Below are positions 23,389-54,853 of a stretch of DNA of 64,000 nt, piece after piece. The notes under the pieces are model-generated. The model did no database searches and was not told the origin of the DNA. It saw only the letters and a list, made by a program, of their open reading frames with translations. The stretch covers positions 27,051,645-27,115,644 of the forward strand of contig OX457028.1 of the NCBI GenBank assembly GCA_949752745.1, in the 5' to 3' direction. Every line of letters begins with the position of its first letter. The first letter of the stretch is position 1. A program made the translations under genes and the position numbers. The DNA is from Protula sp. h YS-2021 (lineage: Eukaryota > Annelida > Polychaeta > Sabellida > Serpulidae).

Positions 23389-23442
23389 AGTAATGTGTAG
23401 ACACATCTAGTCTATCTACATCACATAAACGATTTAGCCGCC

Positions 23443-24533: not shown

Positions 24534-24535
24534 TC

Positions 24536-26296: not shown

Positions 26297-26467
26297 TGTT
26301 GTATTAGTTAAGTTGTATTAGTTAAGTTGTTGGTAATTGTTAATTTTATTATGAATATTGTAAATAAACAAGAAAGTGTTATACAACATTCTTTTTTATT
26401 GTGTTATACATTATTTACATTTTAACAATTATTTTACATTTCAACAAATCTATTTTACATTAAACTT
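26297..26467. terminator. Convergent 3' ends of the two gene arms of A
   Basis: A plus-strand AATAAA at 26363-26368 serves the protease side. A minus-strand AATAAA (TTTATT at 26395-26400) serves the polymerase side. Element B has the mirrored arrangement at 45390 and 45422. Confidence 0.6.
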
Positions 26468-27515: not shown

Positions 27516-27530
27516 GATGACAATACCTTG

Positions 27531-27888: not shown

Positions 27889-27950
27889 GTTAACGCTTCA
27901 ATGTTTACACCTCAAATAACTCTTACGTTGGAGGACCCACCCTTTTATAA

Positions 27951-27958
27951 CGTTGCTT
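27951..27958 (-). promoter_or_regulatory. TATA box overlapping the polymerase stop codon
   Basis: The minus strand reads TATAAAAGG across the end of the polB frame (stop at 27957-27955), 63-70 bp upstream of the PC4-like ATG at 27888. It implies a separate transcript for the PC4-like gene and its followers. Confidence 0.55.
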
Positions 27959-31710: not shown

Positions 31711-31879
31711 TGCTGAACTCGCTGTGTTGCTTCATCAATTGCTTAAACTGATATGATGAAATGTAGGTCACGCTCATCCCATTTATGCCACATGGGTATG
31801 CACTGCAGAGACATCTAGCGGAGAGCAATGTGTTCTGACGATATCTGAAAGCATTAAGAAAGGTTGTTGGCATAATATG

Positions 31880-33341: not shown

Positions 33342-33426
33342 TGCCAGAGGGCGGGATCGATCCACCAACCTCCAGACCATGGGTCCGCTTACGAGTCCTC
33401 TGCTCTACCAAGTGAGCCATTCAGGC
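33342..33426 (-). tRNA. tRNA-like unit 1, right TIR of A
   Basis: Same 85-nt unit as 16726-16810. The T arm GGTGG ATCGATC CCGCC is perfect here. One acceptor position differs (CTCTGGC). Confidence 0.4.
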
Positions 33427-36151: not shown

Positions 36152-38669
36152 AGTAGTTGAATAATGGGGTTTCTAACACATATATAATGGGGTTTCTAAA
36201 ACATATATAATGGGGTTTCTAAAACAGTGACGTCATTGTTTTAGAACCCCATGGCGAAAGTAAAACAGTGACGTCATATGAACGTCATAATGACGTTATA
36301 GGGATAGTGGGCAGCCATTCAGACGGTTAAACGAACAGCCAGACAAATGGGCAGCCGGGACAAATGGGCCTCCGTAAAAAAGGATCAACCGGGCCATCGT
36401 AAAATCAACTAAAAACTGGACCGAATTTCGCTACACGTAGCGAAATGACACCCACTTGCAATGGTACAATCTATGTGGTCACAGACACATTTCTCAGTCT
36501 TTCCACATAATTGTCAGCTTCCGAATCATTATCATGAACAAGGACATCGAAGTGAATATAATGTAATCTCAAATAATCAAATTCAGTTTTCTAACCGTTT
36601 TCGAGATAATGGTCAACTTCCGGTTTTTGACCTTGACCATGACGTAGGAGGTCAAGGTCACCGAGGTACCTCTTATATAACGTCTTTTAGGCCCAAAGGG
36701 TCGAAAATAAGCTCAAAATCGCTCTGTCTCTAACCGTTTTCGAGATAATGGTCAACTTCCGGTTTTTGACCTTGAAAATGACGGAGGAGGTCAAGGTCAC
36801 CGAGGTACCTCTTATATAACGTCTTTTAGGCCCAAAGGGTCGAAAAATAAGCTCAAAATCGCTCTGTCTCTAACCGTTTTCGAGATAATGGTCAACTTCC
36901 GGTTTTTGACCTTGACAATGACGGAGGAGGTCAAGGTCACCGAGGTACCTCTTATATAACACCTTTTAGGCCCAAAGGGTCGAAAATAAGCTCAAAATCG
37001 CTCTATATCTAACCGTTTTCGAGATAATGGTCAACTTCCGGCTTTTGACCTTGACCATGACGGAGGAGGTGGAGATCACCGAGGTACCTCTTATATAACG
37101 TCCTTTAGGCCCAAAGGGTCGAAAATAAGCTCAAAATCGCTCTATCTCTAACCGTTTTCGAGATAATGGTCAACTTCCGGTTTTTGACCTTGAAAATGAC
37201 GGAGGAGGTCAAGGTCACCGAGGTACCACTTATATAACGTCTTTTAGGCCCAAAGGGTCGAAAATAAGCTCAAAATCGCTGTATCTCCAACCGTTTTCGA
37301 GATAATGGTCAACTTCCGGCTTTTGACCTTGACCATGACGGAGGAGGTAGAGATCACCGAGGTACCTCTTATATAACGTCCTTTAGGCCCAAAGGGTCGA
37401 AAATAAGCTCAAAATCGCTCTATCTCTAACCGTTTTCGAGATAATGGTCAACTTCCGATTTTTGACCTTGAAAATGACGGAGGAGGTCAAGGTCACCGAG
37501 GTACCACTTATATAACGTCTTTTAGGCCCAAAGGGTCGAAAATAAGCTCAAAATCGCTGTATCTCCAACCGTTTTCGAGATAATGGTCAACTTCCGGTTT
37601 TTGACCTTGACCATGGCGGAGGAGGTCAAGGTCACCGAGGTACCTCTTATATAACGTCTTTTAAGCCCAAAGGGTCGAAAATAAGCTCAAAATCGCTCTA
37701 TCTCTAACCGTTTTCGAGATAATGGTCAACTTCCGGTTTTTGACCTTGAAAATGACGGAGGAGGTCAAGGTCACCGAGGTACCTCTTATATAACGTCTTT
37801 TAGGTCCAAAGGGTCGAAAATAAGCTCAAAATCGCTGTATCTCTAACCGTTTTCGAGATAATGGTCAACTTCCGGTTTTTGACCTTGATCATGACAGAGG
37901 AGGTCAAGGTCACCGAGGTACCTCTTATGTAACGTCTTTTAGGCCCAAAGGGTCGAAAATAAGCTCAAAATCGCTCTATCTCTAACCGTTTTCAAGATAA
38001 TGGACAATTTTTCTCTAACGGATTTCAGTATACAAAAGTCACATGACCTTGACCTTGACACTCAAAGAGATGTCACTCGAGATTCTATCTATGATGTTAC
38101 TGCCTACTCACAGCGTACACGTGTTGAAACAAGGATTGGAGCACTATTTCCATCAATTTTTCGTGATGGAATAGGTTTTTGAAAAAATATTTTGACCTCA
38201 ATTTGACCTTGACCTTAAAGGTCAAGGTCAAAAAATTTTGCCAGAATTCTTTGCAAAGCATACCCATTTAGAAACTATGCCTGCAAGTGGGAATGAGCAA
38301 CCAATGACAGAGTTTCATTAAGCCTAGCTATTTTTAACTCAGAGAGCTCTCTCTCCACAAACACACCAACACCACGGTAGACGCAGGCAGACGGACAGAT
38401 GGGACACCTCCCCAAACCCACAAGTTCTCCATTTTTTAAACAGAGAACTCATAGCTACATGGTTAGAGCTCACCTATAAGGCCCCCTTAAAGTCAAAGGG
38501 GGTATAAAAAGGAGTATAAAAAATAGCCCCCCTTTTTTATTTTTTCAAAATTTTTTTAATTTTTTTTAATTTTTTTATTTATTTTTTTTAGCATTTCCCA
38601 CACTCTTATGCATACACACACATACCAACACCATGACAGATGTTTAGCGTTTCATTTCGTATTAGTGGG
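36152..38669 (+). repeat. Left TIR of element B (split by an insertion)
   Basis: 36152-36415 and 38294-38669 together match the inverse of the right TIR. Landmarks are ATATATAATGGGGTTTCTAA repeats, ACAGTGACGTCAT, GGGCCATCGTAAAAT | TGAGCAACCAATGACAGAG, AGTTCTCCATTTTTTAAACAGAG and GTTTCATTTCGTA. Confidence 0.88.
36416..38293 (+). mobile_element. 139-bp tandem-repeat element, copy 2, inside TIR of B
   Basis: Sits between ..AACTAAAAA and TGAGCAACC. In the right TIR these two are contiguous, so the borders are firm to within a base or two. Near its start is a hairpin TTTCGCTACACGTAGCGAAA, then CCCACTTGCA (36451). About ten 139-bp units follow (36593-38000), then a unique part ending TGCAAGTGGG (38291). 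No target duplication is visible. Insertion between A and T is Helitron-like, but TC..CTRR ends are lacking. Confidence 0.8.
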
Positions 38670-38686
38670 GGGCTCTTAAAAGAGCC
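38647..38686 (-). terminator. Histone-type 3' stem-loop plus purine box (minus strand)
   Basis: On the minus strand GGCTCTTTTAAGAGCC forms a 6-bp stem and a TTTA loop. This is the histone-mRNA 3' consensus. Exactly 12 nt later comes GAAATGAAACGC, comparable in place to a histone downstream element. It lies 184 nt beyond the stop of the gene at 38871. Confidence 0.6.
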
Positions 38687-38870
38687 GGGAAGTGTTGGTT
38701 TTTTCCTGCTGCTGCTGCTGCCGGTCCCCGGTTTAAAAATACTCCACAACATCTTGAATTGGTCTGGCGCAGTGACTCATTTGCTGGCTGTTAAATAGAA
38801 AATGATCAGTTTTTAGTCCGCATGTGAAGCATCCTGTTGTATATTGATGGTTTAATGCCGTTAGGTAGGT

Positions 38871-39287
38871 TCATAGTGACGCGCAATAAACGCATGAGTG
38901 GTGTCCACAGTCGACAGCGATAACCCTATCCGGACTTAGCATACAGCCACATCCGATGCAGATATCCAAGTCCTGTTGCAAGAAGCATCTGCCCCACGCC
39001 GGATATTCTTCCTCTTCGAGACTTGACGGGATTGACTCTCCCAACATGGTGAACCGGAAAAAAGCTTCAACGTAGTGCCCCTCTTCTATGTTGCGTAAAA
39101 GCTTCCCAAGCGTCACCATCCTGTTGAAAAAAACCGGTATGCAGAGGACTGAGACGTTGGTCGGGTCCGGCAGCAGCTGATAAAAGAAGAATCGCGAGGG
39201 TTGGTTGACTGGTCGAGTCACCGGTACATGCACTTCCCGTGCATTTCTCAGCGTTAAGGTGTCGTTCAAAGCGAAGAAAAGCTCCAT
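38871..39287 (-). CDS. 138-aa protein with C-terminal RING-like Cys/His motif
   Basis: Outward-facing accessory gene between the left TIR and the inner inverted repeat. It starts MELFFALNDTLTLRNAREVH. The last 30 residues read CIGCGCMLSPDRVIAVDCGH and then HSCVYCASL. The Cys-x2-Cys ... Cys-x-His-x2-Cys-x2-Cys spacing is the front half of a RING finger with the protein ending there. It could be a truncated RING E3-like protein or a short zinc-binding fold. An acidic patch (SLEEEEYPAW) precedes it. Promoter TATATAA is at about 39338-39345 on the minus strand, and the 3' end has a histone-type hairpin. Confidence 0.6.
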   Translation of the reverse strand: MELFFALNDTLTLRNAREVHVPVTRPVNQPSRFFFYQLLPDPTNVSVLCIPVFFNRMVTLGKLLRNIEEGHYVEAFFRFTMLGESIPSSLEEEEYPAWGRCFLQQDLDICIGCGCMLSPDRVIAVDCGHHSCVYCASL

Positions 39288-39339
39288 GCTGTTGAAAGTT
39301 CAAAGCGGTTGTGAACCTGAACTGAAATGACTAGCAGTT

Positions 39340-39534
39340 ATATACCACCTCAACCCCCCCCCCCCGACCACTGAGCCACAAGCAAGTGAGGACCCCCCCA
39401 AGAGATAGAAGCAGACTGACTGCATAGAGTGTGAGGACCTCCCCCCGGGTGCTCATAGATGTACTCTGTGAGGACCCCCTTCCCCGTTGCCTGCATATAC
39501 TGTGAGGATGGCCTCTTGTATGTAGTAGTATATA
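39340..39534. promoter_or_regulatory. Inner inverted repeat / divergent promoter, left end of B
   Basis: Contains GAGATAGAAGCAGACTGACT, GCATAGAGTGTGAGGACCTC and GGGTGCTCATAGATGTAC. All of these recur inverted at 53870-54030. TATATAA faces outward at about 39340 (minus) and TATATAAA faces inward at 39527-39534 (plus), so one shared region drives two genes in opposite directions. Confidence 0.7.
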
Positions 39535-39575
39535 AATGGAGGTTAAAGGCCACATTTCCCAAAACAAGCAGCAAG

Positions 39576-39928
39576 ATGTCTACAACTCGCACATACACAG
39601 TGATGCGGAACGGAAGGGCAGTAACGCTGACGACAGAATGCTACAAGTGCTGGGTGTGTTAGAATATCCAAGACAACCACACAACTGCCCGGTACACCAC
39701 AATGCACCGCATCGATACTGTTGCAAAACCTGCGGTGGTTTGCTATGGTATAAGTTTACGGCAACATTACCTGGACCAGAACCATGTACAGACTGCTGGT
39801 GGTGCGGTGCGACTCTGAGAAACCTCAAGTATTACAATTTTCACCCTTTTAAGTGTTCACGAAGATCTTTCACGATGGAGCAGTTTTATAGATATCAGTG
39901 GAGTTGCGGAAACCCGGCTTGTTGGTGA
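39576..39928 (+). pseudogene. Cys-rich zinc-binding accessory protein (frameshifted)
   Basis: The ATG at 39576, 42 nt after a TATATAAA, starts MSTTRTYTVMRNGRAVTL and soon meets a TAG (39660). The rest is open in another frame, with PHRYCCKTCGGLLWYKF, CTDCWWCGATLRNLKYYNFH and WSCGNPACW at the end. At least five C-x2-C pairs suggest two or three zinc knuckles or ribbons. Family unknown. Whether the frame change is decay, splicing or recoding cannot be told from this copy. A histone-type hairpin starts 25 nt past the stop. Confidence 0.55.
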
Positions 39929-39952
39929 AGAGCCAACTTACTAAAATCTTTC

Positions 39953-39992
39953 GGCCCTTCTAAGGGCCATCCTCTGTTGTGAAATGAAACGC
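39953..39992 (+). terminator. Histone-type 3' stem-loop plus purine box
   Basis: GGCCCTTCTAAGGGCC is a 6-bp stem with a 4-nt loop (TCTA). Twelve nt later comes GAAATGAAACGC (39981-39992). It starts 25 nt after the stop of the zinc protein gene, a typical histone-gene distance. Confidence 0.6.
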
Positions 39993-40016
39993 AAATTCTG
40001 TCTATGTATGAGTGTG

Positions 40017-40024
40017 TATAAAAG
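40017..40024 (+). promoter_or_regulatory. TATA box of polB, element B
   Basis: TATAAAAG 66-73 bp before the ATG at 40090. Confidence 0.6.
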
Positions 40025-40089
40025 GGGATATCTGAGATTACATTTCAGCATTTCAGTTTCAGCAGTTGACGTAACAACAACCAGCTAAG

Positions 40090-43000
40090 ATGAAACGTGA
40101 AGAGCATGGAAAAGGAGCAAAGAGACGAAAGATGGAACAAGATGACATTTGGCCATACGGTCCAGTCCTCTGTATGGAATGTAATGTGGAATTTCCATCT
40201 GTGGATACCTTTGAGGCACATACATGTAGTAAAGCTGAGGTGAAAACTATAGTGAAAGATGCTCGTGAAGAGCATGGGAAAGGAGCAAAGAGACGAAAGA
40301 TGGAACAAGATGACATTTGGCCATACGGTCCAGTCCTCTGTATGGAATGCAATGTGGAGTTTCTATCTATGGATGCGTTTGAAGCACATGCATGCATACC
40401 AGCTGAGATGGAAAATGCGCCTCAGGAAGAACATATTTCAAAGAACCAAAAGACAGGACAAGTAGGGAGAGGTAGAAGGGTAGGTCTTGGTGAAAACGCG
40501 CAGGAAAAATGGTTTGAGTCTGAGGATGGATCGGATTTACTGCTTGAAGTGCGACAGCAAGAGAACCGTATCAAGGCCCATTTGTTGGAGACCTTAAACC
40601 ATGGAACGAAATGGTACATTGTAGTGCATGCACGCTTCAAGAAACTGACAGCGAATGCTGAAGGTGTTATGGTAGAACAAGTGGGTAATGCATTTATCAG
40701 CAGTCCAACATACACAGCATACAATCCAGCGGATATTGAGCGGGACTTGCCAGAAGCCTATAAAGAATTGTTTACTAAGTTTGATGAACATGAGCGACAA
40801 GGTTCTGGCTGGGTGTTGGATAACATACTATACATTGAAGTACATACAGCTACGTTAGCGCCACTGGATGCAAATAGTTTTATTCCACTACCGAAGAAAG
40901 TGAAGAAAATAAAGGATGTGATAAACATTGAGAATGATGACAACACGTGCTTCTTATGGTCAGTATTGGCTTACCTTCACCCTTCAAAAAGCAACCCAAA
41001 TCGCGTGAAACTATACAAACCATTTGAGAAGGAATTAAAGGTAGAGGGTATGACATTTCCGACACCAGTTACTGACATTCCAAAGTTTGAAAAGGAGAAC
41101 GATGTAGCCATCAACGTGTTTGGATATGAACAAGATGTAGTTGTTCCAATACAACTTAGTCGAAACGTCAGTGTGAGAGAAATCAACCTACTTCTGATTA
41201 GCAATGACAAGACGAGGCATTACTGCCTCATCAAGAATTTTAGCAGACTTATGTCTTATCAAAGCAGAATTGTGCAGCTTTTTATTGTTCCAACTGTCTT
41301 CACGGGTTTATACGACAAGATCTTTTAGATAAACATCGTGAAGTGTGTGACAAGAATGGAGCACAACGTTTATCATTTCTCAAGGAACCCTCTGTCAAGT
41401 TCAAGAATGTAGCTAAACAACAGCGAGCACCTTTTGTGATTTATGCCGACTTTGAATGTTTCACGCAAAAGCATGAAGAAGGGGACAAGTATCAACATCA
41501 TCGCCCAAACAGCTTCCCCTATGGGGTTGTGAGCCAGTATGACACACGTGCACCAGTCGTGTATCGAGGAGACAACGCCGTAAAGGTCTTTTTAGACTAT
41601 GTGGTGAATGAACGTGATCGTATTGTACGTGGTTTAGAGCAGCCAAAGAAAATGGTGATGACTCGCGAAGACAAAGAGAATTTCAAGAACGCTGTCGATT
41701 GTTACATTTGTCATGAGCCTCTAGGAGCAGATCGTGTGAGAGATCATGACCATATCAATGGCAAATATCGCGGAGCAGCGCATAGTGGATGCAACTTACA
41801 ATTCCGACGTAGAAAAGATCGGCAGGGGGATAAAGATTCTTTTATCATTCCTGTGTTTTTTCACAATTTGCGAGGCTATGACAGTCATCTAATCATGGAG
41901 GAAATTCGGAAATTCAAAGATGAAACGATTACAGTCATTCCCAACACCATTGAGAAATATATTGCATTCACCATGAGCAATCTGAAATTTACAGACAGTT
42001 TTCAGTTTATGAGTACCTCTCTACAGAACTTGGTATCCAACCTTGTAGCAGAAGGGAAAGATAACTTCTACAACATGACCTCTCACATTCCCGATAGTGA
42101 CCAAAAAGATTTGTTGCTGAGAAAGGGAGTGTACCCCTACGATTGCGTGGACGAACCATCCAAGTTTGCTGAAACGCAGCTACCATTAAAGGACAAGTTT
42201 TATAGTCAGCTTAGCGAAGAGGACATTAGCGATGAGGATTATGCGCATGCGCACAAGGTGTGGGATACATTCAACTGTACCACATTTGGCGAATACCACG
42301 ACCTGTACCTGAAATCAGATGTGTTATTACTAGTTGATGTGTTTGAAAATTTTCGTCAAGTATGCCTCAACACGTATGAATTGGATCCTTCCCACTACTA
42401 TACAGCACCAGGACTGTCGTGGGATGCTATGTTAAAAGCGACAAAGGTTGGGCTGGAATTGATCAATGACATTGACATGTACCAAATTTTTGAGCAAGGC
42501 ATACGTGGAGGAATATCTGTGATCACACACAAGTATGCGAAAGCAAATAACCCCTACGTAGCAGATTACAATTCTGAGATACCAAACAACTACCTGATGT
42601 ACCTCGACGCAAACAAGTTGTATGGTTGGGCCATGTCACAAAGCATGCCACAAAGAGGATTTATGTGGGTGAGCTAGCCAGAATCCATTAACTTCATGGA
42701 TGTAGCTGAAGATGATGACATTGGCTTCATTTTGGAAGTGGATGCATTCAATGCATGATCGTCATAGTCACTACCCAGTCACTACCCAGTGGCTCCAGAA
42801 CGGAAATGTGTCAAAGTTGGAGAATTGTCAGAGTACAGTCAGAAGCTGCGGAAAGATCTGAACATAAAAGACAAACCCAGTGAAAAGCTCATTCCTAACT
42901 TGTGTGACAAGAAGAAATATGTGCTTCATTATAGGAATTTACAACAGTACGTCTCACTGGGGTTGAAAGTCACCAAAGTACATCGCGCCATCATGGTTGA

Positions 43001-43852
43001 ACAGAGCAAATGGTTTGCAAAATACATTACCTTGAACACGGAAAAGAGAAAATTGGCTAAGAATCCGTTTGAGAAAGACTTCTTCAAACTGATGAACAAC
43101 TCTGTGTTTGGTAAAACCATGGAAAATGTGAGAAAGCGAACCAGTGTTGAACTTGTTCACAAGGAAAAGCGGTTCAAGAAACTCGTGGCCAAACCTTCTT
43201 TCCACAAATTCAAAATTTTCAACGAAAATTTGACTGCTGTACATTTGCGCAAAGTGGATTTGTTTCTGGATAAACCCATTCAAGTTGGCTTCACCATTCG
43301 CGACCTCAGCAAAGTGCTTATGTTCAACTTTCATTACAACTATATCATGATCAAGTATCCCAATGCCAAGTTTTTGTTCAGCGACACCGACAGTCTATGC
43401 TACGACATAGTAACGGAAGATATCTACAAGGATATGCAGCAAGATGCTGACCTGTTCGACACAAGTGACTATCCGCCAGATCACTTCCTTCATTCCAACG
43501 TGAACAAAAAAGTGCTTGGGAAAATGAAGGATGAGACAGCAGGCATCCCCATTGAAGAGTTTGTTGGACTCAGACCGAAAATGTACAATTTATTGTGTGG
43601 TGGGAAAGAAAAACATACAGCTAAAGGCATCACTCAAGCTTGTCAAAGACGCATTAAACATGTGCAGTGTAGAGACAGTTTGTTCAAGAAACTCAAACAA
43701 TGACTAAAGGACGCATTATTCGAAGTCATAGTCACCAGCTTTTCTCGGAGAAGATGGAGAAAGTAGCCCTCTTTCCATATGACGACAAGCGATATGTGTT
43801 GGATGATGCCTATTCCACCTTAGCTCATGGACATTACAAGGCTGCAGAGTAA
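40090..43852 (+). pseudogene. Protein-primed DNA polymerase B (broken), element B
   Basis: About 1250 codons. The N-terminus carries a tandem duplication of ~57 residues, each with the finger GPVLCMECNVEF and a downstream FEAH-x-C. Then comes DNTCFLWSVLAYLHPSKSNP and an HNH-like cluster CYICHEPLGADRVRDHDH with HSGCN. Exonuclease motif YADFEC and RGYDSHLIM follow, then polymerase motifs YLDANKLYGW, KLMNNSVFGKTMEN and SDTDSLCYD. Breaks are frame changes near 41270, a TAG at 42676-42678 followed by a small loss near 42745, and a frame change near 43690. The end KAAE-stop is inferred by likeness to A. All catalytic Asp residues in the three polymerase motifs are still present. Confidence 0.92.
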
Positions 43853-43910
43853 AAAAGGGGAGGTCCTCCAACGTAAGAGTTATTTGAGGTGTGAACATTG
43901 AAGCGTTAAC

Positions 43911-44267
43911 ATGGAACTTGAAAGTCGCAAGAGATCTGCAACTGATATGGATACTCTTGCAGATACAGTCAAAGACTTAAAAGTTAAAAATCCTACCACT
44001 AAAATCAACAAATTGAAAGTAGAGACGGCACCAACACCACAGTCGTAGGATGGAATGCTTTCTCTAGGAAATGGAATGTATATTAAGATTATGAAACAAA
44101 GCAATGAAGGAGTGGTAAACATTCGCAAGTACCTCAGAGATGAGGGGACTGGAAGAAACCATCCTACCAAAAAGGGTATTTTGCTGACAATACCTGAATG
44201 GAAAATGCTGAAGAAGCAGGTTAAAGAAGTGGATAAAAGGCTTCGAAGACAAGAAGACGGCGCATAA
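43911..44267 (+). pseudogene. PC4-like ssDNA-binding coactivator (one stop), element B
   Basis: MELESRKRSATDMDTLADTV then a Lys-rich stretch and a TAG at 44046-44048 (a Trp codon in A). The PC4 domain GMLSLGNGMYIKIMKQSNEG, VVNIRKYL, KKGILLTIPEWKMLKKQV is complete. It has the usual four strands and closing helix. Best match in the window to the canonical p15/PC4 fold. Confidence 0.8.
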
Positions 44268-44284
44268 AAAAAAGTATTGTCATC

Positions 44285-44742
44285 ATGAATGCACTTGTAT
44301 TTAACGGTGGTGCTAACCTAGCTGTAAATGATAGGAATGTAGTGATAATAAGTTCTCGGACAATAAGTTCTGCTTATCAGTTTAAACCTGAAGTGTGGAA
44401 AGACTTTAAAAACATATCGCTTGAACCTGGGTTTAAACGTAGGCTTGAAAATAAATTTGAAATGTTAGTGGTTGAACATGATTCTAACATACGTGTTATA
44501 TTCTGGAGAAATCTTTTACAGGATTATCCAGAGGATTATGATGGAGTTGTGCCAGATACTCCATATTCAGATTTAATTAACTTTGATATGAAGAATTGGC
44601 GCGCAGTCTTACGATTCCTAGAAGCTATACAACATCCACTCTTCACCATCCTGCGAGCATAAAAACGTCTTTGCAGACAAGGAGACAGTTCATAGTTGAT
44701 ATGACTGTTGAACGAGATGGAAGACTTTTTATCGGAATATGA
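44285..44742 (+). pseudogene. Unrecognised ~150-aa protein (MNALVF...), element B
   Basis: Same protein as A 27065-27515 with FKPEVWKDFKNISLEPGF and LLQDYPEDYDGVVPDTPYSD. A frame change near 44630 sends it to a stop at 44660; the original frame would run to 44742 and so overlap the next ATG at 44716. Present in both elements, hence a real gene of this lineage. Confidence 0.6.
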
Positions 44743-45058
44743 ACCCATTACAAATGGATTCTCATATCTGAGAAACTTGTGTGATGACATTGTGCTAAGA
44801 CATTTTGAAAAGTATATCATTCTATTACCTGACGAACAATCCGTGTTGAAAGACTATCTAGAGAAGTTGAGGTTACCCGGCTTTCTCCTAATACTCTCAG
44901 AGAATTTAGAAGTGCGTGTGACTGAGAACTGTCTAGACGTGTTTGTACGATTTCACCAATATGACGAGCTTACAGAAGGCTACGACTACATCACCCTCAA
45001 CACAGTGGAATGGTACGCTCTGTTACAAGCATTGGATTGGAAAGAACCTGACGCTTGA
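44716..45058 (+). CDS. 113-aa protein with PC4-like tail, open in B
   Basis: MEDFLSEYEPITNGFSYLRN, KYIILLPDEQSVLKDYLEKL, GFLLILSENLEVRVTENCLD, and DYITLNTVEWYALLQALDWK near the end. The pattern of strands followed by L-x-x-x-E-W-x-x-L-L recalls PC4 domains. I start at the Met at 44716 because the A copy has the same Met. An upstream in-frame Met at 44708 is also possible. Confidence 0.55.
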
Positions 45059-45341
45059 ATTCAAAGAGGAAGGAGTGCAACTCATGCGGGGCACCAAGTC
45101 CATTGAGCTGACACATCCCATGTGTGTTATGGTGATGGACATTGACATGAATGATCATGGATATGAACTGAAACTGTCTGAACGCGAATATGTAAAAAAA
45201 ATAAAGTTTGGTAATGGACAGTGTTATGCTAGTTTTCATAGCATTTACAAACGTGGGTGTAATGTCTATGATACATATATTAATTTAGATTGGTATGAAT
45301 GGCATTTGTTTATCGATGTATTGAAGGTATTTGTGAAATAA
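44961..45341 (+). CDS. PC4-fold-like protein overlapping the previous gene, open in B
   Basis: 126 residues from the Met at 44961, overlapping the previous gene by ~98 nt in another frame. The first ~30 residues are low in character (MTSLQKATTTSPS), so the true start may be later. The body has LTLEFKEEGVQLMRGTKSIE, KIKFGNGQCYASFHSIYKRG and YDTYINLDWYEWHLFIDVLK. It is the last gene of the polymerase arm. Confidence 0.5.
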   Translation: MTSLQKATTTSPSTQWNGTLCYKHWIGKNLTLEFKEEGVQLMRGTKSIELTHPMCVMVMDIDMNDHGYELKLSEREYVKKIKFGNGQCYASFHSIYKRGCNVYDTYINLDWYEWHLFIDVLKVFVK

Positions 45342-45493
45342 AAGTTTAATGTAAAAAATAATTGTTAAAATGTAAATAATGTATAACACAATAAAAAAGA
45401 ATGTTGTATAAAACTGTCTTGTTTATTTACAATATCCATAATAAAATTAACAGTTACCAACAACTTAACTAATACAACTTAAATAATACAACA
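45342..45493. terminator. Convergent 3' ends of the two gene arms of B
   Basis: AATAAA on plus at 45390-45395 and on minus (TTTATT 45422-45427), the same face-to-face layout as in A. Confidence 0.6.
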
Positions 45494-45928
45494 TCAATAA
45501 AATAATGGTTTATAATGTCTATATACAAAATCCTTTACAACAAAATCCCCATCACTTCTTCTTAATACATCAATGATTTCAAAAGGACTATGCCCTCGAG
45601 CTCTTTGAATTATATAATACACACAATAAAATCCACATGTAGATTACGGTGTTTGTAATGGAACTGAATTATAAATGAAATTAAACTTTAAAAACTTATT
45701 CAAACGACTGTCTATAGGTAAAAGTCCATAAGAGTCAAAATATTCTGCAGGGTCTTCGTCATAATATACTGCCACCCAATGCTCTCCTGGCTCATCATGA
45801 TCGTCTGTGTTGATGACATAGGCACCGCGTTGTAAAGATGGTAACTGATCCATGGAAAACACACCTTGAAACAAGTCTTTTGTCGCGGCATCATGGGATA
45901 GTATGGCCTCTATCTGCTTCGTGTTCAT
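45494..45928 (-). pseudogene. Adenain-like cysteine protease (one stop), element B
   Basis: MNTKQIEAILSHDAATKDLF, then GEHWVAVYYDEDPAEYFDSY with the catalytic His and the acidic partner, a TAA at about 45646, then STCGFYCVYYIIQRARGHSP with the catalytic Cys. About 144 codons, shorter than adenovirus protease but usual for Polintons. It processes the small virion proteins and perhaps penton. Confidence 0.87.
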
Positions 45929-47292
45929 GACTGGTAGTCGAATTGAATGCTACGATTTGCACTTAGTGTATGCTGTTATCAAATTCAGCATACACTATAA
46001 CATTGATTGTATTTTGCAAGGCACCAGCAAAATTCATTTCTAGTCGCAAATTCCCATGTTTGATAAGGGCATAATGATCATCACCATCATAATCAGGTGT
46101 TAAGTCAAAAGAAAATAAAGAATAACCTCTAGGCCTATCTTTCCGTTTTATAATGAAACTTTTCTCACCATTCAATCTATCAAAAGATTTGTAAAGAGTT
46201 TCAAAAGCGTCAAGATATTTTCCTTGATTTATGTCAAGCTTGAGAGATTTGGATAGGACTGGTTAACCATCAGAGTAAAGCTGCATAAAGTTAAGATCAA
46301 AATGTTCAAAATTGTATGGATTTCTCAATACTGTTCCAGCAAAGGATTCATTATGAACCATTCCAATGACAATACGTTTTGGTAATTGGCCTAAAAAGAT
46401 GCTATCTTTCACAAAAGATTGAAATCCTGGTGGAATAGCCAAAATTTTACACTCTTTTCTAGTAATAATAAACTTAGCAGGACTTTTCATCAATGCATCT
46501 GCATGTTCCAACTGAATACCTGGACTAACCTTCACTTTGCGAATGGTTAAAAACGCTTCTCTCACTTCTACTTTAAAACCATTATTTGCAGTCATTAATA
46601 CATATTCATCTTTTTGTCTATGTAAACGTAATTTCATACTAACACCATTTGGAAGATAACGATCCTGCTCAAACAAATCTACGCTTAAACCACCTGTAAG
46701 CATAAACTCACGGCTTAGACGTGTATACAAATAACGATTATCAAAACCATTATTTCCTGTTTCAGCTAGATCGCCACCCTCAACATTTACAACCTGATAC
46801 ATATCTTTCATGATTAGCTCTTTTCACCTCATGAGTATTCATTGACCCGGCAGTATCTTAATCGATGAGACGAATAGAGCGCTCAGAATGGAGACTTTCT
46901 TCCGAGTCATGAATGAGATGAGATATGATGCTGGTATAACCATGGGTATTGTTACTATGTGATATGAAACGATGATTTAGAAATAATTCAATATTGGACC
47001 ATAACCCATTAAACAAATCATTGATACATGACACGTTATCATCTACACCACATAGTGTTCTATCAGCCTTTACAATGCGGCATGCACTATGGAGTTTACT
47101 GTTCTTTAAATCTAGATATTCTTCTGTAGTCACAGGAATGTAGAATTCTATTGGAGCACCCTCTCTAATGGTAGTCATTGGTTGATAGTCTACATAATAA
47201 CTTTTTTCTACAGCAGTTTGCGTTGGTGGTATGTGAAACCATTCTAATGGAGAAAGACTACATTCACAAGAATGATTATGAATTAAAGACAT
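45925..47292 (-). pseudogene. Major capsid protein (double jelly-roll), broken in B
   Basis: MSLIHNHSCECSLSPLEWFH, IPPTQTAVEKSYYVDYQPMT, PIEFYIPVTTEEYLDLKN and later TRLSREFMLTGGLSVDLFEQ. About 455 codons. A stop at 46857-46859, a stop near 46263 and a frame change near 45965 interrupt it. It is better preserved at the N-terminus than A, so the two copies complement each other for family assignment. Confidence 0.88.
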
Positions 47293-47294
47293 GA

Positions 47295-47649
47295 TTAAAA
47301 AATATCTTTCTTATATTTTGTTGATGTTATCCGTTTAGCTGCCTTTCGCCTTCTGACAGGTTTTGCTGGTTGTGCTCTCTTTTGTCCTCCTAACCCATCA
47401 CCAAACATACGTTGTGCTACTCGACCTGTAACATCTTTCGCGACATCTTTTGCAGCTTTTTTAAGATGTGGTGCAACGATTTTAGCCCCTGCCTTAAGCA
47501 GTGGAATAGCTTTGCGAGCCAATGATCCCAGTATTGAACCAATACGATCTCCATATTTTATTTGCGCTCCTTTAAATCCTGGTAATTCCCCACCCACTTG
47601 ACGACGAAAATGGTTGCGATATATAGATGGATTGTGTGTATGCTTTCAT
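47295..47649 (-). pseudogene. pVI/pX-like virion protein, element B
   Basis: The ATG overlaps the penton stop (ATGA at 47646-47649). A frame change in the first ~20 codons precedes the conserved body RRQVGGELPGFKGAQIKYGD, the Ala/Lys helix KAGAKIVAPHLKKAAKDVAK and the basic end RRRKAAKRI. The GG cleavage motif is kept. Confidence 0.7.
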
Positions 47650-48410
47650 AATGCTTTTCGTCGAAAATGAAGTTTACAGATCACCTTTCCAGTTTGAAAT
47701 GGAACATTATGACTTGTATCGTCCTTAATATTCATTTCTATCACGTCAAATTTGGATGTGTTTGCAGGAACATAATGAGGTTCTCCATAAGTTTTCATGA
47801 CAATGTCTCCATCATGTCCTTGTATTCCAACAGAACGTAGCAAAGGAACATAATAATCGCCAACAACTTGTGGCTCACAAATACTACAGTACACATAAAG
47901 TGTATAAAATCCCTGTTTCACATCGGCTTTATGTTCAGCTGTACACGTTTCAGTATACCATTGATCTGGGATAAATCCTAAAATCTCAGCTAATCCAGCG
48001 GACAATGACACTTCAAAGTTATAATTTAGAAATAGAAAAACTCGTCGTCTAATTTTATCATACTTTATCCGAATAGCTTCTTTAAGGTCATCTTTCATAG
48101 AATTAGTCGCTTCTTCATTGACTGCATGACATACGTCTTATATGGATCTGTAGTAACCATAAGGAATAGTGATTGTGTCAAGAACAGAATCTGTAAATTG
48201 TTGTTGTCGATACTGAATAGAATAGGCCATTCCATGTCTCATGATTGTCCATGTATGTGGATATTGAATTTCAGCTAAAGCCACTTCATATTTTCCGTTC
48301 AGATAGATGGTTCGAGGCATACGAATTTGATAATTCGAAGTCTTGTTGTTGGGATAATAGTTCATACTAGCATTGCATGGTAAAGTAATGTAAAAACTTG
48401 TTGACTCCAT
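47646..48410 (-). pseudogene. Minor capsid (penton-like), split in B
   Basis: MESTSFYITLPCNASMNYYP, KYEVALAEIQYPHTWTIMRH and, after a frame loss near 48135, FLNYNFEVSLSAGLAEILGF and YCSICEPQVVGDYYVPLLRS. Clear orthologue of A 23443-24189. Confidence 0.82.
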
Positions 48411-48464
48411 GACAGCTAAATCGCTTATGTGATGTAGATAGACTAGATGTGTATATACCTTACT

Positions 48465-48674
48465 TCATGTTTGACACTCGTCATCCTCACTCTCTACATT
48501 GCTGTCTACATTGTTGTCTAAATTGATATCTACAGGATCTACATTGGTATCTACTACTTCTCCCTGACAACAAGCACTGACACACCTAATTTTTACAGGA
48601 ATAGTATTTTTATTTCCATTTTCTTTACAACAACAACACTATAACTCTTTAATCCATGTTAAAAAGTTTCCCAT
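48465..48674 (-). pseudogene. Small MGN...Cys-run protein, element B
   Basis: MGNFLTWIKEL, then a TAG, then four Cys, CKENGNKNTIPVKIRCVSAC and an acidic tail (NVDSNVESEDDECQT). Overlaps the end of the 196-aa gene by 17 nt, as in A. The N-terminal MGN and the acidic tail are conserved between the two elements. Confidence 0.5.
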
Positions 48675-49145
48675 CCTTCTGGAAACAACCTTTGTTGACG
48701 TTGTTTTGTAATATCTTCACGAGTTGTCTTTTTGCTAAAAACAGTTTTTGGAATGTTACCGTCTACAATTTCCTCAATAGACTGCTTCCAACCATGTGGT
48801 GGTTCTCATCGTTCTTTTCTTCTTGTAGCAACCAATTCCTCTTTCAACAAATCAATAATTTGGGATTTGTAATGACAGTACCTGTTTTTAAAACAAGTTC
48901 ATTTTTATCTGTCCATCTCGTACCATATTTCTTAAGTTCTGCCAGAAGTTGTGTTAGTTTTACATGATAAATAGGTTGAAAATTGTTTAGAAACTGTTGG
49001 GACTTTTCTGATTTTTCTGCATTAGATGCTGTAACAGACTTTTGTCGTTGTTGTTGTGACTGAATTTCACCATCTTTTCCCTTTTTTCTAACAACATTTT
49101 GTATTCATATTCAGGAATGAGGACCATTTTCAAAGTATGTTTCAT
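48658..49145 (-). pseudogene. Copy of the 196-aa basic protein, deleted and frameshifted in B
   Basis: Starts MKHTLKMVLIPEYEYKM in an ATGA overlap with the preceding gene. It lacks about 90 bases that encode residues ~27-57 in A, and has frame changes near 48810 and 48860. Confidence 0.65.
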
Positions 49146-49461
49146 TTTAACAGCAACTGAGCTAACAAGGGTAATGCAAATTTAGCAATAGCTCCAATAA
49201 ATCCTCCTTTCCGATTAACCAACTTCTTTTTTCTTCGAAGTGATATCTTCTTATCTGCTAGTGTGCGTAGGGTATGACGTTCACGCTTGAATACCTTTTT
49301 GAGCTTAAGGGTAAATGTCCTCGCAATATATTCAAACAAATTTCAAACAAGCTAGTTAATTCCTCCCTAGTAGCTTGTTGTAGCAAGGATTTACGTCGTT
49401 TAGGCCCGCTGCGTGCGAGCAAGTGAAGGAAAGGTTGATTCACTTGAATACGTTTAGACAT
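49142..49461 (-). pseudogene. 108-aa basic virion-type protein, frameshifted in B
   Basis: MSKRIQVNQPFLHLLARSGP ... FEICLNILRGHLPLSSKRY, frame change near 49295, then KKISLRRKKKLVNRKGGFIG. The residue at the GG site is RKGG here against QKGG in A. Confidence 0.65.
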
Positions 49462-50109
49462 CTTGGCTGCGAATGGTCAAGTGATTTGGTTCTTGTTCAT
49501 ACGCTACTTTATCAACATATACGTAATGTGTATCTTTTGGTAAAATGCCTGTACGAATACGCAGTTGATCACTCGTCTTCGGCTTCAAATCAATGAATAA
49601 ATAGCCATGAGGTTTGCTGGTAGCATCTTGATAGGCTTCTATGAGAAATTGAGATTTTCCAGGATACATTTGTGGCGCTAATGTACTTATTTGTTGACTG
49701 TCTCTATGATTTTTAAACAAAATTATGTAATGTTTATTCAAACTAATACTTCTCATTTCTCTTCCATGATGGAACAAATTATGCACAATAAAAATAATGC
49801 TTAGATTTTGATGACTGCTGCCAACACTAAAGAGACGTGTCATTCGCTCATCACTATGGCATTTGGTCATTAAGTCATCAATGATGAATAAGTTTGGTTT
49901 TTCGGGTTAAAACGCTCTTCAATGTCATCTGGAATGCCTTGGTAAAATTCCACACCTTTCATTCCCTTATACAAAGGCTGATCTGCTGCATAAAGCCATA
50001 AAATGGTTTTTGGGGAGGGTTTAATTAACTTTTGTTCTAGAATTTCCCTAACTAGAGAAGTTTTAGCACTGCCTGTAGGTCCAGAGACCAAACATGTGAA
50101 TAAATGCTT
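49454..50109 (-). pseudogene. FtsK/HerA-type packaging ATPase (broken), element B
   Basis: Walker A GPTGSAKTS at about 50080, Walker B IIDDLM at about 49880 after a frame change, then NLSIIFIVHNLFHHGREM. The initiator Met seen in A is changed (TTA), so the first usable Met is at 50091. Confidence 0.86.
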
Positions 50110-51211
50110 AATTTTTTAATGTCTGTTTCTTTCATCCAACTGTTAAACTTCTTTGGCTAACCTAACCACTTGACAAATAATTCTTTAACACCTCGTCTTT
50201 TTTGTGTTTTCAAAACCTTTTCAATTCTGTAGACTGATTCAATATCTTTTGTCACTTTCTGCAGTTCTTCTACATAAAAATGTCCATCAATATCTTCGTC
50301 CAAAAAGTCTTTCACACGATACAAGTGTATTCCTTGCTTCTTACAACGATGTGTGATAATGAAGACTTCTTGCGTCCATTTTATATGATAATCCCGCTGA
50401 AATACATATTTCATGTGAGAAATGCGAACCTGATCACCAATCTTAAATTTGTAGGGTTTTTTCTTTTTCTTTGGTTTTAATTTCAATTTGTCTACATACA
50501 TATACTTCCACACTTTCGATTCGTTGTCTTTACGAATATCTGCAGGAGCATACTTATTAGGGAGGGAGCCATGAGGTCTACGGTTGTAATTATACACTAA
50601 GTCTGGAAGGATGTCCATATATCGATAAGTTTGATTATGTAGGAAATATCGATACAGCAATCCCCTTAGAGTACGAATGACTCTCTCAGCAAAGTTGGCT
50701 TTGGTTTTATTCTTTGTCGTATAGGCATGCATTCCCTCCTTCTTCAAAAATGCTTTTACCCATCTGTTTTTAAATTTAGTTCCTTTATCCGACCTTAGAG
50801 TTCGTGGTCTTCGTTGTGTTTCATGAAAAATCTTTTGAAAGGCTTCTATAACGCTGGTATGTGATTTATTAGGTATTTGCTGCACCCATAAATATTTCGA
50901 AAACACATCAATGACAACCAATAAAAAGCGGGTGTTATCATTATAGGGAGCTATGTTTCCCATGTCAGCTAAATCAATATCCCACATGTCATCAATTCCA
51001 CGTGTAATGACACGTTGCCCTTTAAACCTGTATTTTACAGGTTGTAGTAAACTGAAGGAATCTTGATCCTGTAACTATTTCTTCACTTGTGAATGAGTGG
51101 CTGGTTGATAATGTTTTTTAATATGTGATAAAGTTTGTAAGGACCAGCAAATGCCCCGGGTTGACCAGGTTTAAAGTAAATATTGGTTAAGTAGTCTTTC
51201 CACGTCGACAT
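50110..51211 (-). pseudogene. Polinton integrase with chromodomain (broken), element B
   Basis: The Met at 51211 starts MSTWKD. A TAG stop near 51075 and frame changes near 51110 precede a long open part (50157-50987) with WDIDLADMGN, LRSDKGTKFKN and NFAERVIRTLRG, a KIGDQVRISHMKYVF segment and a chromodomain YRIEKVL...ELFVKWLG. A TAG cuts the chromodomain at about 50157. Note Lys in place of Glu in the SDKGTKF stretch, though the catalytic Asp is kept. Confidence 0.9.
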
Positions 51212-51354
51212 GTTAACACTAAATGATCAACACTTGTTAACATGTCTTGCATTTTATTTTGTCAACATATCTTGCATTTTATCAACATATCTTAAATTTT
51301 ATTTTATCAACATATCTTACATTTTATTTTGTCTCACAACTCAATCAACATATC
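51212..51354. repeat. Short AT-rich repeats between integrase and small genes of B
   Basis: The unit TCAACATATCTTACATTTTA recurs about four times. A has only two (about 20462-20520). Confidence 0.6.
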
Positions 51355-51646
51355 TTACAAATCAAGTATTGATACAATAATGTGAATAGTTGGAGTCCAT
51401 TGATCTTCAATGTATATTAACCAACTACTTAATTCATCAAATGTGATAGCATCTACACCATATTTTTCACAACGTTGATTTGCATTATCTAACACTTTAT
51501 CTAAATGAATATAATATTTAGCTTCATTCCAATGAATGACACGTATGTTCTAAACACTCTTCATTTTGACAAGCAGAACATACCAAACATGTAATTTTTT
51601 TTACAGCTAATAACATTTCTTCACAATATATTTTTGCACAATACAT
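51355..51646 (-). pseudogene. Cys/His protein, degraded copy in B
   Basis: Orthologue of A 20139-20462. The ATG of A is ATT here. YCEEMLLAVKK, ACQNEEC and DAITFDELSSWLIYIEDQWT remain, with a frame change in the Cys region near 51545. Confidence 0.55.
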
Positions 51647-51668
51647 TTTCTCTATGTAATGTCTGCCA

Positions 51669-51956
51669 TTATACTGCAATATAGATTAACCACTCTCTCA
51701 CTTCATCAAACAGTCTTGGATCAAATCGAGCGAAGTGATATGCTGCTTCCACATCAAACTCCTCAGCTCCGTCAATGTTTGAAAGCACACACTCTTTGAT
51801 GAAATCCTCGCGTAAGTTTGGTACGTTTAACGTGGAATGAGCAAGTTCCCAATAAATGTCAAAGTTCTGCAGTTGTTGTTGAATAGATCCAAAACGTGTC
51901 AGTTCACTTATCATGTAGTCCACATACTTCTCCTTGAAACACGTTTCTGCATCCAT
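51669..51956 (-). CDS. Unrecognised 95-aa acidic protein, open in B
   Basis: MDAETCFKEKYVDYMISELT ... LREDFIKECVLSNIDGAEEF ... LFDEVREWLIYIAV. Orthologue of A 19846-20130 with few changes, which suggests a protein-level constraint before decay. Upstream frame extends to 52055 but is not conserved. Confidence 0.65.
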   Translation of the reverse strand: MDAETCFKEKYVDYMISELTRFGSIQQQLQNFDIYWELAHSTLNVPNLREDFIKECVLSNIDGAEEFDVEAAYHFARFDPRLFDEVREWLIYIAV

Positions 51957-52024
51957 CTTTGTTTCACATGTCCATATAACACGTCTGCACACTATGACGG
52001 CTGGTAAGCAAATGACTCTCAGTC

Positions 52025-52629
52025 TTACTCCACAGAAACAGTTAGTGAGCCGCACTTGTTGCAGATGTTGTCTGGTTCACACAACTTGCAATTGTACTTG
52101 TGGCAGTGACAATCATAATCCCCAGCATATCCGTAAGCACCACAATATTCACAGGTAAGTCCAAGTTGATTTTGCACATCCATATTCTCCAATTGAACTT
52201 CAGCCAGTCTTTTCTTGGATAACTTTGACACTTTCATCCGATTGTCCTTTTGCAGCTTGGAGTTTTCTTGCCATGATATTCCGTACATGGCAATAAGGTT
52301 GAGTTGATGCTATCCTTCTCCTGAAGCAATGTCTCCCATTCACCATCATTCATGTTGATGTAATACTTGTATTCTTTCCCTTCAAACAGTGATGTATGCA
52401 CAAAACTCACATAGCGCATGCCTTGGTATGAAATGACTTCAAGCCATTTCGTTTGCCTTAAGTACAGTTTGAAGCCAATGTCGCGTAATCTTGCTAAGTT
52501 CAGGCACACAATCTTCCACAAGGATGGTGATAAAGCAAGCCATCTCTCTCCAATAAATAACCCAAATTGTCCCTGCTCCACAGCAATGGTTAAGTTTGCA
52601 CTAATTTTAAAGCTGCTTGTCTTCTCCAT
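52025..52629 (-). pseudogene. PC4-fold-like / zinc-ribbon protein, one frameshift in B
   Basis: MEKTSSFKISANLTIAVEQG, ERWLALSPSLWKIVCLNLAR, YVSFVHTSLFEGKEYKYYIN, EWETLLQEKDS, then a frame change near 52285 and KLSKKRLAEVQLENMDVQNQ, CEYCGAYGYAGDYDCHCHKY and CKLCEPDNICNKCGS. Two PC4-like halves (LSPSLWKIV and INMNDGEWETLL) suggest an internal repeat. TATAAAAGG lies ~40 bp upstream. Confidence 0.6.
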
Positions 52630-52683
52630 GGCTGCGCGTTGAATGATGACTGCACTTGACACCTCACTCCTTTTATATGGACA

Positions 52684-53756
52684 TTACATGTATTTTTTCG
52701 TGAGATGTTTGCAAAATCGTGGAGTGATCTCGTTGAAACCATCCAGAAAGGCTGTTGGCAAACCGTCTGTTAGAGATTGTTTCATGATGATCACTAAAAA
52801 GTCTCCTCGTTTGCGACTACCAATTATCCATTCAAAGAGCATTGGAATGGTGAAATGTCCTTTTTCATAGAGGTAGGCCATCATATCATACACCTTAATA
52901 CGTTCTTCAAGGTACTTGAAGCCATGTAGCATGATCTTTGCACATTTGGAATCGCGATCCTCGTCTTAAAAAGTTCCTCATGAAGACTTCTAATAAGTTG
53001 AACGAAACGTCGGGTCATGACTTGGGAGAACTGTGGCTCTGACGCAAGAAGATGCTCTAGGTTTCCTCCTAGCATGTAGATAAGCTGAATGACAGTGTTC
53101 ACCTCTTCCGTTAGGTATATGTGCGTGTGTTGGTCGAAAAAGCCTTCTTCACATAAACGCCATAAAATGTTGCAATCGATCAGAGGAATCACTGCTTGAA
53201 AGTTTCGTTTCAACATCGTGACGTCTTCCTCAGTAACAGGAATAGTTTTGCTCAATTCAAATTTAGATTTGAGCTGCTTGTCATCGTCGTCGCTGTCGTC
53301 ATCGTCGTCGTTATCGCCGTCGTTGTCGTCGTCGTTGTCGTCATCGCCGTCGTTGTCGCCGTCGTTGTCGCCGTCGCTGTCGCCGTCGTTGTCGTCGTTG
53401 TTGCCATCGCTTGACATGACCACTTCTTCCTCAACATGCTCTAGATGTGCCTTTAACTTTGTGCTAAGTGGCTTGGCGCTACCATTTAAAAGCGCATTTG
53501 CAACCCAGAACGGGTAGTCAGATCCCTCAGGATCTGGCATTGCTTGCTGTACTGTAGACACGTCTGGCGGAGCACCTAACACTTCCTCAGGCTTTCTTTG
53601 CTGTACTGTAGACACGTCCGACGGAGCCCCTAATGCTTTCTCCAAGGCCTTATCAGCTTCTGCCATTGTACTTAGGAAGGCAGCAGTCTCCTCTGCAGTT
53701 AAAACTGCATCTGTAAAAGCCATTGTTTCCTTGTCGAACAGGCTATCAATTTCCAT
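52684..53756 (-). pseudogene. Asp-rich protein with two helical, death-fold-like domains (B only)
   Basis: Starts MEIDSLFDKETMAFTDAVLT at 53756. A duplicated short repeat (GAPSDVSTVQQ / GAPPDVSTVQQ) is followed by a ~45-residue Asp/Asn/Gly tract. Then comes an ~90-residue helical domain with LIDCNILWRLCEEGFFDQHT and FVQLIRSLHEELFK. After a frame change near 52925 a second helical domain follows with YDMMAYLYEKGHFTIPMLFE and GLPTAFLDGFNEI. The spacing resembles CARD/death-fold domains (I-L-x-x-L-x-x-x-G-x-x ... F-x-x-x-L). This is pattern recognition only. Promoter TATAAAAAGG is at about 53832 on the minus strand. Confidence 0.5.
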
Positions 53757-53799
53757 GTTGCTAGCCGTTGATGCTTTTCGAGACGTCCATGATGTCTTG

Positions 53800-54050
53800 G
53801 CAATACAATGGCCATAGGGGCGGCGAACCGACCTTTTTATACTACTCTCGGTGGCGGTCCAGTGGCTTGTGGCTCACTGGCCGGGGGAAGTTCCTCACAC
53901 GGTACATCTATGAGCACCCGGGGGAGGTCCTCACACTCTATGCTGTCAGTCTGCTTCTATCTCTGGGGGGGGGGGTCCTCACAGCGACTTTTTCTAGCAG
54001 CCTCGCACTCTATGCAGTCAGTCTGCTTCTGACTGTTGGCCAGCTAACAT
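53800..54050. promoter_or_regulatory. Inner inverted repeat / divergent promoter, right end of B
   Basis: Inverse of the block at 39340-39534: GTACATCTATGAGCACCC, GAGGTCCTCACACTCTATGC and CAGTCTGCTTCTATCTC. The inward TATA (AGTAGTATAAAAAGG on minus) mirrors AGTAGTATATAAATGG at the left. The CAGTCTGCTTCT box occurs twice here. Confidence 0.7.
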
Positions 54051-54051
54051 C

Positions 54052-54791
54052 ATGCAGTACAAAGAAGAATTCTTTAACGCGGCGCGTCGTCAGAAATTTT
54101 TTCTGACACAGAAGGATATCGACCTCTTTGAGGTGATATACAATGAATACAAGGTATTCATGTGCGATAAGTGGATGGAACTTCAAGCGGCAAACACGCG
54201 CGAATACAACCGGTTTGGCAGGGCGGCGGAGGAGAGCCTCCTGCAAAGTTTCGGGATCCGTCGCCCTGCCAGAAAGCGACTCCGGTGAAAGCGACAGCAA
54301 GCCCGAGAAAGCCTGACGTCACCATCCGGAGGATGCAGAGGCGCGTGCCCAGTGCCACTGTCACGAGGCCGGACAGTCCACCACCTGCTCCTTTGGATGA
54401 GCTGACGGCCGCTGTCGCCAGCATTACGGATATACCAGCAACCGACGCCAGCCAGATGCAGTCGGCTTCCGACTATGGCAACACCCCTGAACTGGTTGAG
54501 TTGAAACTGGAGGACGGCTATAGCAAAGAGTCAACATTTCAGGATGTTGTGCACTTCTTGGACACGGTTGACAATGTGCAGTACTGCGACTTCTGCAATT
54601 TCATGGTTCCGGCAGGAGTCTCTATGAGAGTGCATGAACAGGAATGCTCAGAGGCTATGAAGTCCGAACACCATTACTGTAGTGTTCTGGGCAGGGGTTT
54701 CAACTCAAACAGGGCTAGGGTAGCGACTCATAGGAGGAGGTCCGGCTGCAGGGAAGACAACGGCAGCGGCGGGAGCGGCAGGAAGAAGTAA
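54052..54791 (+). pseudogene. Outward accessory gene with C2H2-like zinc region (frameshifted)
   Basis: The ATG at 54052 starts MQYKEEFFNAARRQKFFLTQ, then KDIDLFEVIYNEYKVFMCDK. A frame change near 54285 leads to a Pro/Ser-rich linker (RPDSPPPAPLDEL), an acidic stretch and a Cys/His region VQYCDFCNFMVPAGVSMRVH, EQECSEAMKSEHHYCSVLGR. The last part suggests one C2H2 finger and a degenerate second. GC content is higher than in the core genes, which hints at separate acquisition. A histone-type hairpin begins 21 nt after the stop. Confidence 0.5.
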
Positions 54792-54811
54792 AGAAGAGCA
54801 AAAACCTCCAC

Positions 54812-54853
54812 GGCTGCTTTTTAGCGGCCACCCACTATTACGAAATGAAACGC
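54812..54853 (+). terminator. Histone-type 3' stem-loop plus purine box, right end of B
   Basis: GGCTGCTTTTTAGCGGCC (6-bp stem with one G-T pair, 6-nt loop), followed by ACCCA as in histone genes, and after exactly 12 nt GAAATGAAACGC (54842-54853). Confidence 0.55.

Follow-up and report, generated by a model that had tools for sequence, protein, structure and literature searches.

A probable histone-type 3'-end signal behind accessory genes of a Polinton family in the annelid Protula

To our knowledge, the hairpin signal treated here serves 3'-end formation in animals only in histone genes. Cleavage of histone pre-mRNA is reported 5 nt downstream of the stem-loop, after ACCCA (PMC6303110), and is carried out by the U7 small nuclear ribonucleoprotein (snRNP), which binds a downstream element of lineage-dependent sequence (PMC7026596, PMC1924863). 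The histone genes of Caenorhabditis elegans are described as carrying a hairpin, an AATCC element and AATAAA in that order, yet as ending at the hairpin (PMC1924863). Here we analyze the 3' ends of accessory genes in element B, an integrated Polinton within a 64-kb stretch (the window; contig OX457028.1, positions 27,051,645 to 27,115,644) of the 863-Mb assembly GCA_949752745.1 of Protula sp. h YS-2021, and in copies found by searches that cover that assembly. In this family of Polintons, accessory genes probably carry a histone-type 3'-end signal of the kind used by the stem-loop binding protein (SLBP) and U7.

The element family resembles the 3' ends of metazoan replication-dependent histone genes in its 6-bp stem and 4-nt loop close to a stop codon, in a CA at +5, in a downstream element about 12 nt away and in the small number of canonical poly(A) signals. 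It differs in that the signal follows Polinton accessory genes and not histone genes, that Rfam scores end at 33.7 bits against a cut-off of 34, and that the downstream element is unlike any histone element known to us, with a pairing to the host U7 that is only putative. The order hairpin, element, AATAAA described for C. elegans (PMC1924863) is also that of copies 1 and 3 in element B, whereas the worm loops are CTTT or CTTA, the worm element has another sequence, and most of the Polinton copies fetched from the genome lack AATAAA.

A preliminary description of the window, made from its letters, reported three 6-bp hairpins, the first of canonical histone form, each just past the stop of an accessory gene (Table 1). 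Hairpins 1 and 2 have the 6-bp stem and 4-nt loop of the SLBP consensus, which agrees with Rfam, and hairpin 1 is indeed identical to the 16-nt hairpin of the RF00032 (Histone3) consensus. Hairpin 3, which is 18 nt long with a 7-bp stem and a UUUU loop, does not fit that consensus. Against Histone3, whose gathering cut-off is 34 bits, hairpin 1 scores 25.1 bits (E 0.01) and hairpin 2 scores 22.9 bits (E 0.067), the E values being computed over all 4227 Rfam families; hairpin 3 is unlisted in this whole-library scan, and a separate search of its 201 bases gives it 15.6 bits. The pattern GGYYYTTHTHARRRCC with full pairing has hairpins 1 and 2 as its sole matches in the 64 kb. Markov models of element B contain at least one SLBP-consensus hairpin in 3/400 cases at order 1 and 3/400 at order 2, and the average expectation per model is 0.0075 versus the two observed. 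Only three sites in element B have 6 Watson-Crick pairs, 4 or more of them G/C, around a loop of 4 nt, namely hairpins 1 and 2 and one site inside the polymerase gene.

The hairpins follow accessory genes, and the remaining genes of the element lack them. Among 14 element B genes examined, a strict hairpin (6 Watson-Crick pairs, at least 4 G/C, loop of 3-6 nt) follows the stop at genes 1 and 2 only, gene 1 being counted from its second in-frame stop. Gene 3 has a weaker hairpin with a G-U pair past its stop, and none of the 11 other gene stops is followed by a strict hairpin within 120 nt. The position just past the stop is borne out for hairpins 2 and 3 (24 and 20 nt); hairpin 1 follows an interrupted frame and starts 184 nt past the TGA that ends the open reading frame (ORF) at 38871, or 46 nt past the second in-frame stop. 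Copies 1 and 3 are the left and right inverted-repeat versions of one site, and the suggestion that three independent genes had acquired the signal has to be abandoned. Copies 1 and 2 agree at 25/28 hairpin and box positions and at 44/156 positions elsewhere, and any p-value for this comparison is post hoc because the alignment is anchored on these features. The flanks of copy 2 are only weakly similar to those of copies 1 and 3: the downstream score is reached in 25 and 35 of 1000 resamplings, the upstream score in 242 and 126.

Many further copies are present in the genome. The pattern GGCYCTTYTNAGRGCC, 8-16 nt, GAAATGAAA has 502 matches in the assembly, 252 on one strand and 250 on the other, and the reversed control of this pattern has none. 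The 100 matches listed are dispersed over contigs C1 and C2; by our own reading the gap is 12 nt in all 100, and the stem pair that the pattern leaves free is C-G in 98 and T-A in 2, with no mixed pair. Of the 502, the first 30 copies on C1, chosen by an intact copy 2, were fetched. DNA like accessory gene 2 and like the polymerase accompanies all 30, and DNA like the RING gene accompanies 24; in 15 loci the arrangement was read as gene 2, hairpin, polymerase. Since accessory-gene-2 and polymerase DNA is found in every one, the module in the 30 fetched copies belongs to the Polinton family and not to host histone clusters. Rfam searches of 20 of the 30 loci gave 35 matches at E≤0.1, all of them Histone3, the best at 33.7 bits with an E value of 5.9e-6.

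The copy-1 site of these loci lies about 1.3 kb from copy 2, was untouched by the search pattern, and could be aligned in 29 of the 30 (L194 was dropped). A perfect hairpin of 6 bp and 4 nt is present there in 26/29 loci and is broken in L193, L197 and L202; around it, identity to element B is mostly about 84%. The fourth stem pair is T-A in 15 loci and C-G in 14, the loop is TTTA in 15 and TCTA in 14, and CA occupies +4/+5 past the stem in 27 of the 29.

In the window, GAAATGAAACGC begins 12 nt after all three stems, exactly as first reported. The exact 12-mer was counted five times, and the two occurrences without a hairpin, at 55240 and 55587, have folding z-scores of -0.96 and -1.06. The claim that the box is constant did not survive the comparison with the fetched copies. 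Past hairpin 2 the gap is 12 nt in 30/30, the exact GAAATGAAACGC is present in 2/30, and 26/30 have one additional A; at the copy-1 site the box is mostly GAAATAAGCGC, starting 12 or 13 nt past the stem. A core of GAAAT, then CGC, is common to most copies. In a survey of the window and 151 loci, which together have 139 box-like sites with no more than one mismatch, a loose hairpin (6 bp, loop 3-8, G-U allowed) lies 8-16 nt upstream of such a site in 30 loci, and a hairpin near a box-like site is therefore not rare in itself. By our own reading, none of these 30 loci has the 12-nt gap.

The paired changes, the distance to CA, the near-cut-off Rfam scores and the scarcity of canonical poly(A) signals in the genome copies strengthen the interpretation as a histone-type 3' end. 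The preliminary description had proposed histone-type processing from the order hairpin, fixed gap, purine-rich box; the order and spacing fit it, as do CA and the pairing kept in the genome copies. Host SLBP would recognize the 6-bp hairpin that closely follows the stop codon, and a U7-type snRNP would bind the GAAAT-containing element about 12 nt past it. Cleavage would fall after the CA at +5 and leave a short message that lacks poly(A) and is stable and translated chiefly during S phase. On balance we favor, somewhat more cautiously, the broader view that a large animal Polinton family took over the histone mRNA 3'-end pathway, with accessory messages that lack poly(A) and peak in S phase. 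If this is true, a protein-coding class besides histones uses SLBP and U7, and a DNA virus-like element couples its expression to host DNA replication. Parasites would then be able to take over the histone 3'-end pathway, and a way in which Polintons time expression to S phase would be suggested. The family of 502 matches would also offer a natural variant series of hairpin and downstream element for SLBP and U7 specificity.

A number of observations weigh against these interpretations. No Rfam match attains the gathering cut-off of 34 bits, the A-rich 5' flank of RF00032 is missing in all three window copies, and hairpin 3 departs from the SLBP consensus, although ACCCA follows its stem. Within element B, copies 1 and 3 have CA at the cleavage position and copy 2 has CT. 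The box is variable, its predominant forms in the family being GAAATGAAAACGC and GAAATAAGCGC, its gap is 13 nt rather than 12 nt at 12/29 copy-1 sites, and it is unlike the vertebrate AAAGAG and C. elegans AATCC cores. At the copy-1 site, 14/29 hairpins are identical to hairpin 2, which makes exchange between the sites possible, and the 29 rows, all from loci selected by their intact copy 2, comprise 16 distinct sequences; for both reasons the paired changes may go back to few independent events. Pairing with U7 was compared using the human and fly 5' ends given in PMC7026596, and neither favored the box alone over its shuffled versions. Shuffled boxes paired equally well in 81/500 cases with human U7 and in 290/500 with fly U7; for the boxes with their flanks the counts were 24, 121 and 29/500 with human and 223-324/500 with fly, which is borderline at most. 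A U7 model had no matches in this genome, and this says nothing about the host because it had none in the 14 control genomes either (0/14). Finally, no Histone3 match was found, at E≤5 and E≤3, in 11 distant relatives, namely two polymerase relatives (L123, L124) and nine contigs in prokaryote metagenome-assembled genomes (L125-L133). The pieces are short and their polymerases 32-51% identical, so this is weak evidence.

The main rival, above all for element B itself, is ordinary polyadenylation at AATAAA or at weaker signals past the hairpin, which would then be a stable structure of the 3' untranslated region that perhaps protects the message. We consider it improbable. In element B, AATAAA stands 63-64 nt past boxes 1 and 3, which favors polyadenylation and again weighs against a histone-type end, as does one of eight weaker signal variants found within 119 nt past hairpin 2 in 28/30 copies. 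In element B that variant is TATAAA, which can equally be read as the TATA box of the polymerase gene. Canonical signals (AATAAA or ATTAAA) are otherwise scarce, being present past hairpin 2 in 1/30 copies and within 150 nt of the copy-1 site in 3/28 loci, the latter located by a looser pattern that missed L193 and L194, with two loci offering 114 and 132 nt. The C. elegans histone genes are described as ending at the hairpin despite AATAAA (PMC1924863), and polyadenylation would leave the spacing, the box and CA at +5 unexplained.

It is also conceivable, and in our estimate quite unlikely, that the hairpin and box form a neutral 3' cassette which spread by duplication within the element and by expansion in the genome, and that their conservation reflects recent copying or exchange and not use. 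The inverted-repeat origin of copies 1 and 3, the hairpin-less boxes 4 and 5, the relatedness of the fetched copies (16 distinct rows among 29) and the 14 copy-1 hairpins equal to hairpin 2 would all be expected of such a cassette. A neutral cassette does not explain why stem pair 4 changes in a paired manner and 26/29 hairpins are intact in surroundings of about 84% identity, or why the pairing stays while spacer, 5' flank and box vary, and it would make the exact histone consensus a coincidence. Still less probable is a signal at the DNA level, in which the dyad and GAAANNGAAAC form a site for a transcription factor, or serve replication or transposition from the inverted repeats. We take GAAANNGAAAC to be of the interferon-response-element type. 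A hairpin-less box is present in the right inverted repeat, and box 2 sits 24 nt before the TATA-like motif of the polymerase gene, as a DNA signal might. Against it, a second Polinton copy in the window, element A, keeps the polymerase start with an upstream stretch that has neither box nor hairpin, though it may be truncated there; GAAATAAGCGC breaks the GAAANNGAAAC pattern in most copy-1 sites, where the hairpin is retained; and directly past the gene stops, hairpin and box are arranged in the sense direction.

Table 1. Positions of element B, its accessory genes, hairpins, boxes and poly(A) signals in the window. MFE z, z-score of the minimum free energy of folding.
Feature	Position	Strand	Description
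Element B	36152..56857		Integrated Polinton with DNA_pol_B_2 and rve domains; repeats and flanks taken directly from the sequence
Accessory gene 1 region	38733..39287	-	RING-like Cys/His pattern (own reading); in-frame TGA 38871-38873, next in-frame stop 38733-38735
Accessory gene 2	39536..39928	+	Open frame containing Cys pairs; 30/30 fetched genome copies have similar DNA
Accessory gene 3	54171..54791	+	Open frame, ending 20 nt upstream of hairpin 3
Hairpin 1	38671..38686	-	GGCTCT-TTTA-AGAGCC; 6-bp stem, 4-nt loop; MFE z -3.35
Hairpin 2	39953..39968	+	GGCCCT-TCTA-AGGGCC; 24 nt past accessory gene 2 stop; MFE z -2.83
Hairpin 3	54812..54829	+	GGCTGCTTTTTAGCGGCC; 7-bp stem with G-U pair, UUUU loop; MFE z -3.09
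Box 1	38647..38658	-	Putative histone downstream element, 12 nt beyond hairpin 1
Box 2	39981..39992	+	12 nt past hairpin 2
Box 3	54842..54853	+	12 nt past hairpin 3
Box 4	55240..55251	+	No hairpin; in repeated unit of right inverted repeat
Box 5	55587..55598	+	No hairpin; 98-nt unit 92% identical to unit around 55240
AATAAA	54918..54923	+	Located 64 nt beyond box 3; may be an ordinary poly(A) signal
AATAAA counterpart	38583	-	63 nt past box 1

Searches beyond this genome dealt with viral contigs and the literature. Scans of viral contigs revealed no close relative. The pattern RGCC, 12 nt, box matched 61 viral-contig stretches, none with a 6-bp hairpin ending there, and among the matches listed for the box pattern none encodes a Polinton protein. 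Neither GGCYCTTTTCAGRGCCACC nor the box together with GGTGTTGG had a match in the viral contigs. Two phage-like contigs that matched the hairpin pattern were rejected as chance. The exact 16-mer GGCTCTTTTAAGAGCC is present in 18 viral contigs, none of which encodes Polinton proteins, and the hairpin alone is therefore not diagnostic. In 11 of these 18 contigs (L134, L135, L136, L139, L140, L141, L142, L146, L147, L150 and L151) GGCTCTTTTAAGAGCC recurs in one context and is followed by a second small hairpin-like stretch. Searches of the open-licence literature, in which the original adintovirus description was not among the texts consulted, gave no account of a histone-type 3' end in any mobile element, Polintons and adintoviruses included, and the preliminary description likewise knew of none.

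Element B is an integrated Polinton. It is 20.7 kb long with termini AG...CT, is flanked on both sides by the 6-bp target-site duplication GACCAC, and has terminal inverted repeats that have diverged between left and right. It encodes a DNA polymerase B of organellar or viral type (DNA_pol_B_2, E 1.7e-9), for which 7658 of 7995 scored candidates are relatives, and a retroviral-type integrase (rve, E 1.6e-10). Polymerase B, integrase, inverted repeats, termini, 6-bp duplication and size are all features that element B shares with Polinton/Maverick elements and adintoviruses, and AG...CT ends are typical of Polintons. The polymerase is split over several frames and the RING-like gene is broken by an in-frame TGA, which indicates that this copy is decayed. 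The start region of the polymerase gene is present in the window in two copies at 168-bp spacing, and in the genome copies L191, L199, L201 and L203 it is repeated in tandem several times, with a unit of about 153 bp.

Pfam returned no family at E≤0.1 for any of three accessory ORFs, including the piece 38874-39299 of gene 1, and by this measure none of their products is a replication-dependent histone. Neither the RING-like protein nor a host gene exon had relatives in the protein database. TATA-like motifs, read by eye, face inward in both inverted repeats at 38506 (+) and about 54955 (-), and would drive transcription antisense to accessory genes 1 and 3.

Element A (19139-31765) is an inverted partial copy of the Polinton core and is 86-94% identical to element B in large BLAST pieces. 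It has no inverted repeats, no counterparts of the end regions of element B and no exact box. Two tRNA-like stretches at 16726-16810 (+) and 33342-33426 (-) have nearly the same sequence, score below the Rfam cut-off and are perhaps a short interspersed nuclear element. The left inverted repeat of element B is interrupted at 36443-38294 by a 139-bp satellite array that resembles positions 1970-3420 of the window.

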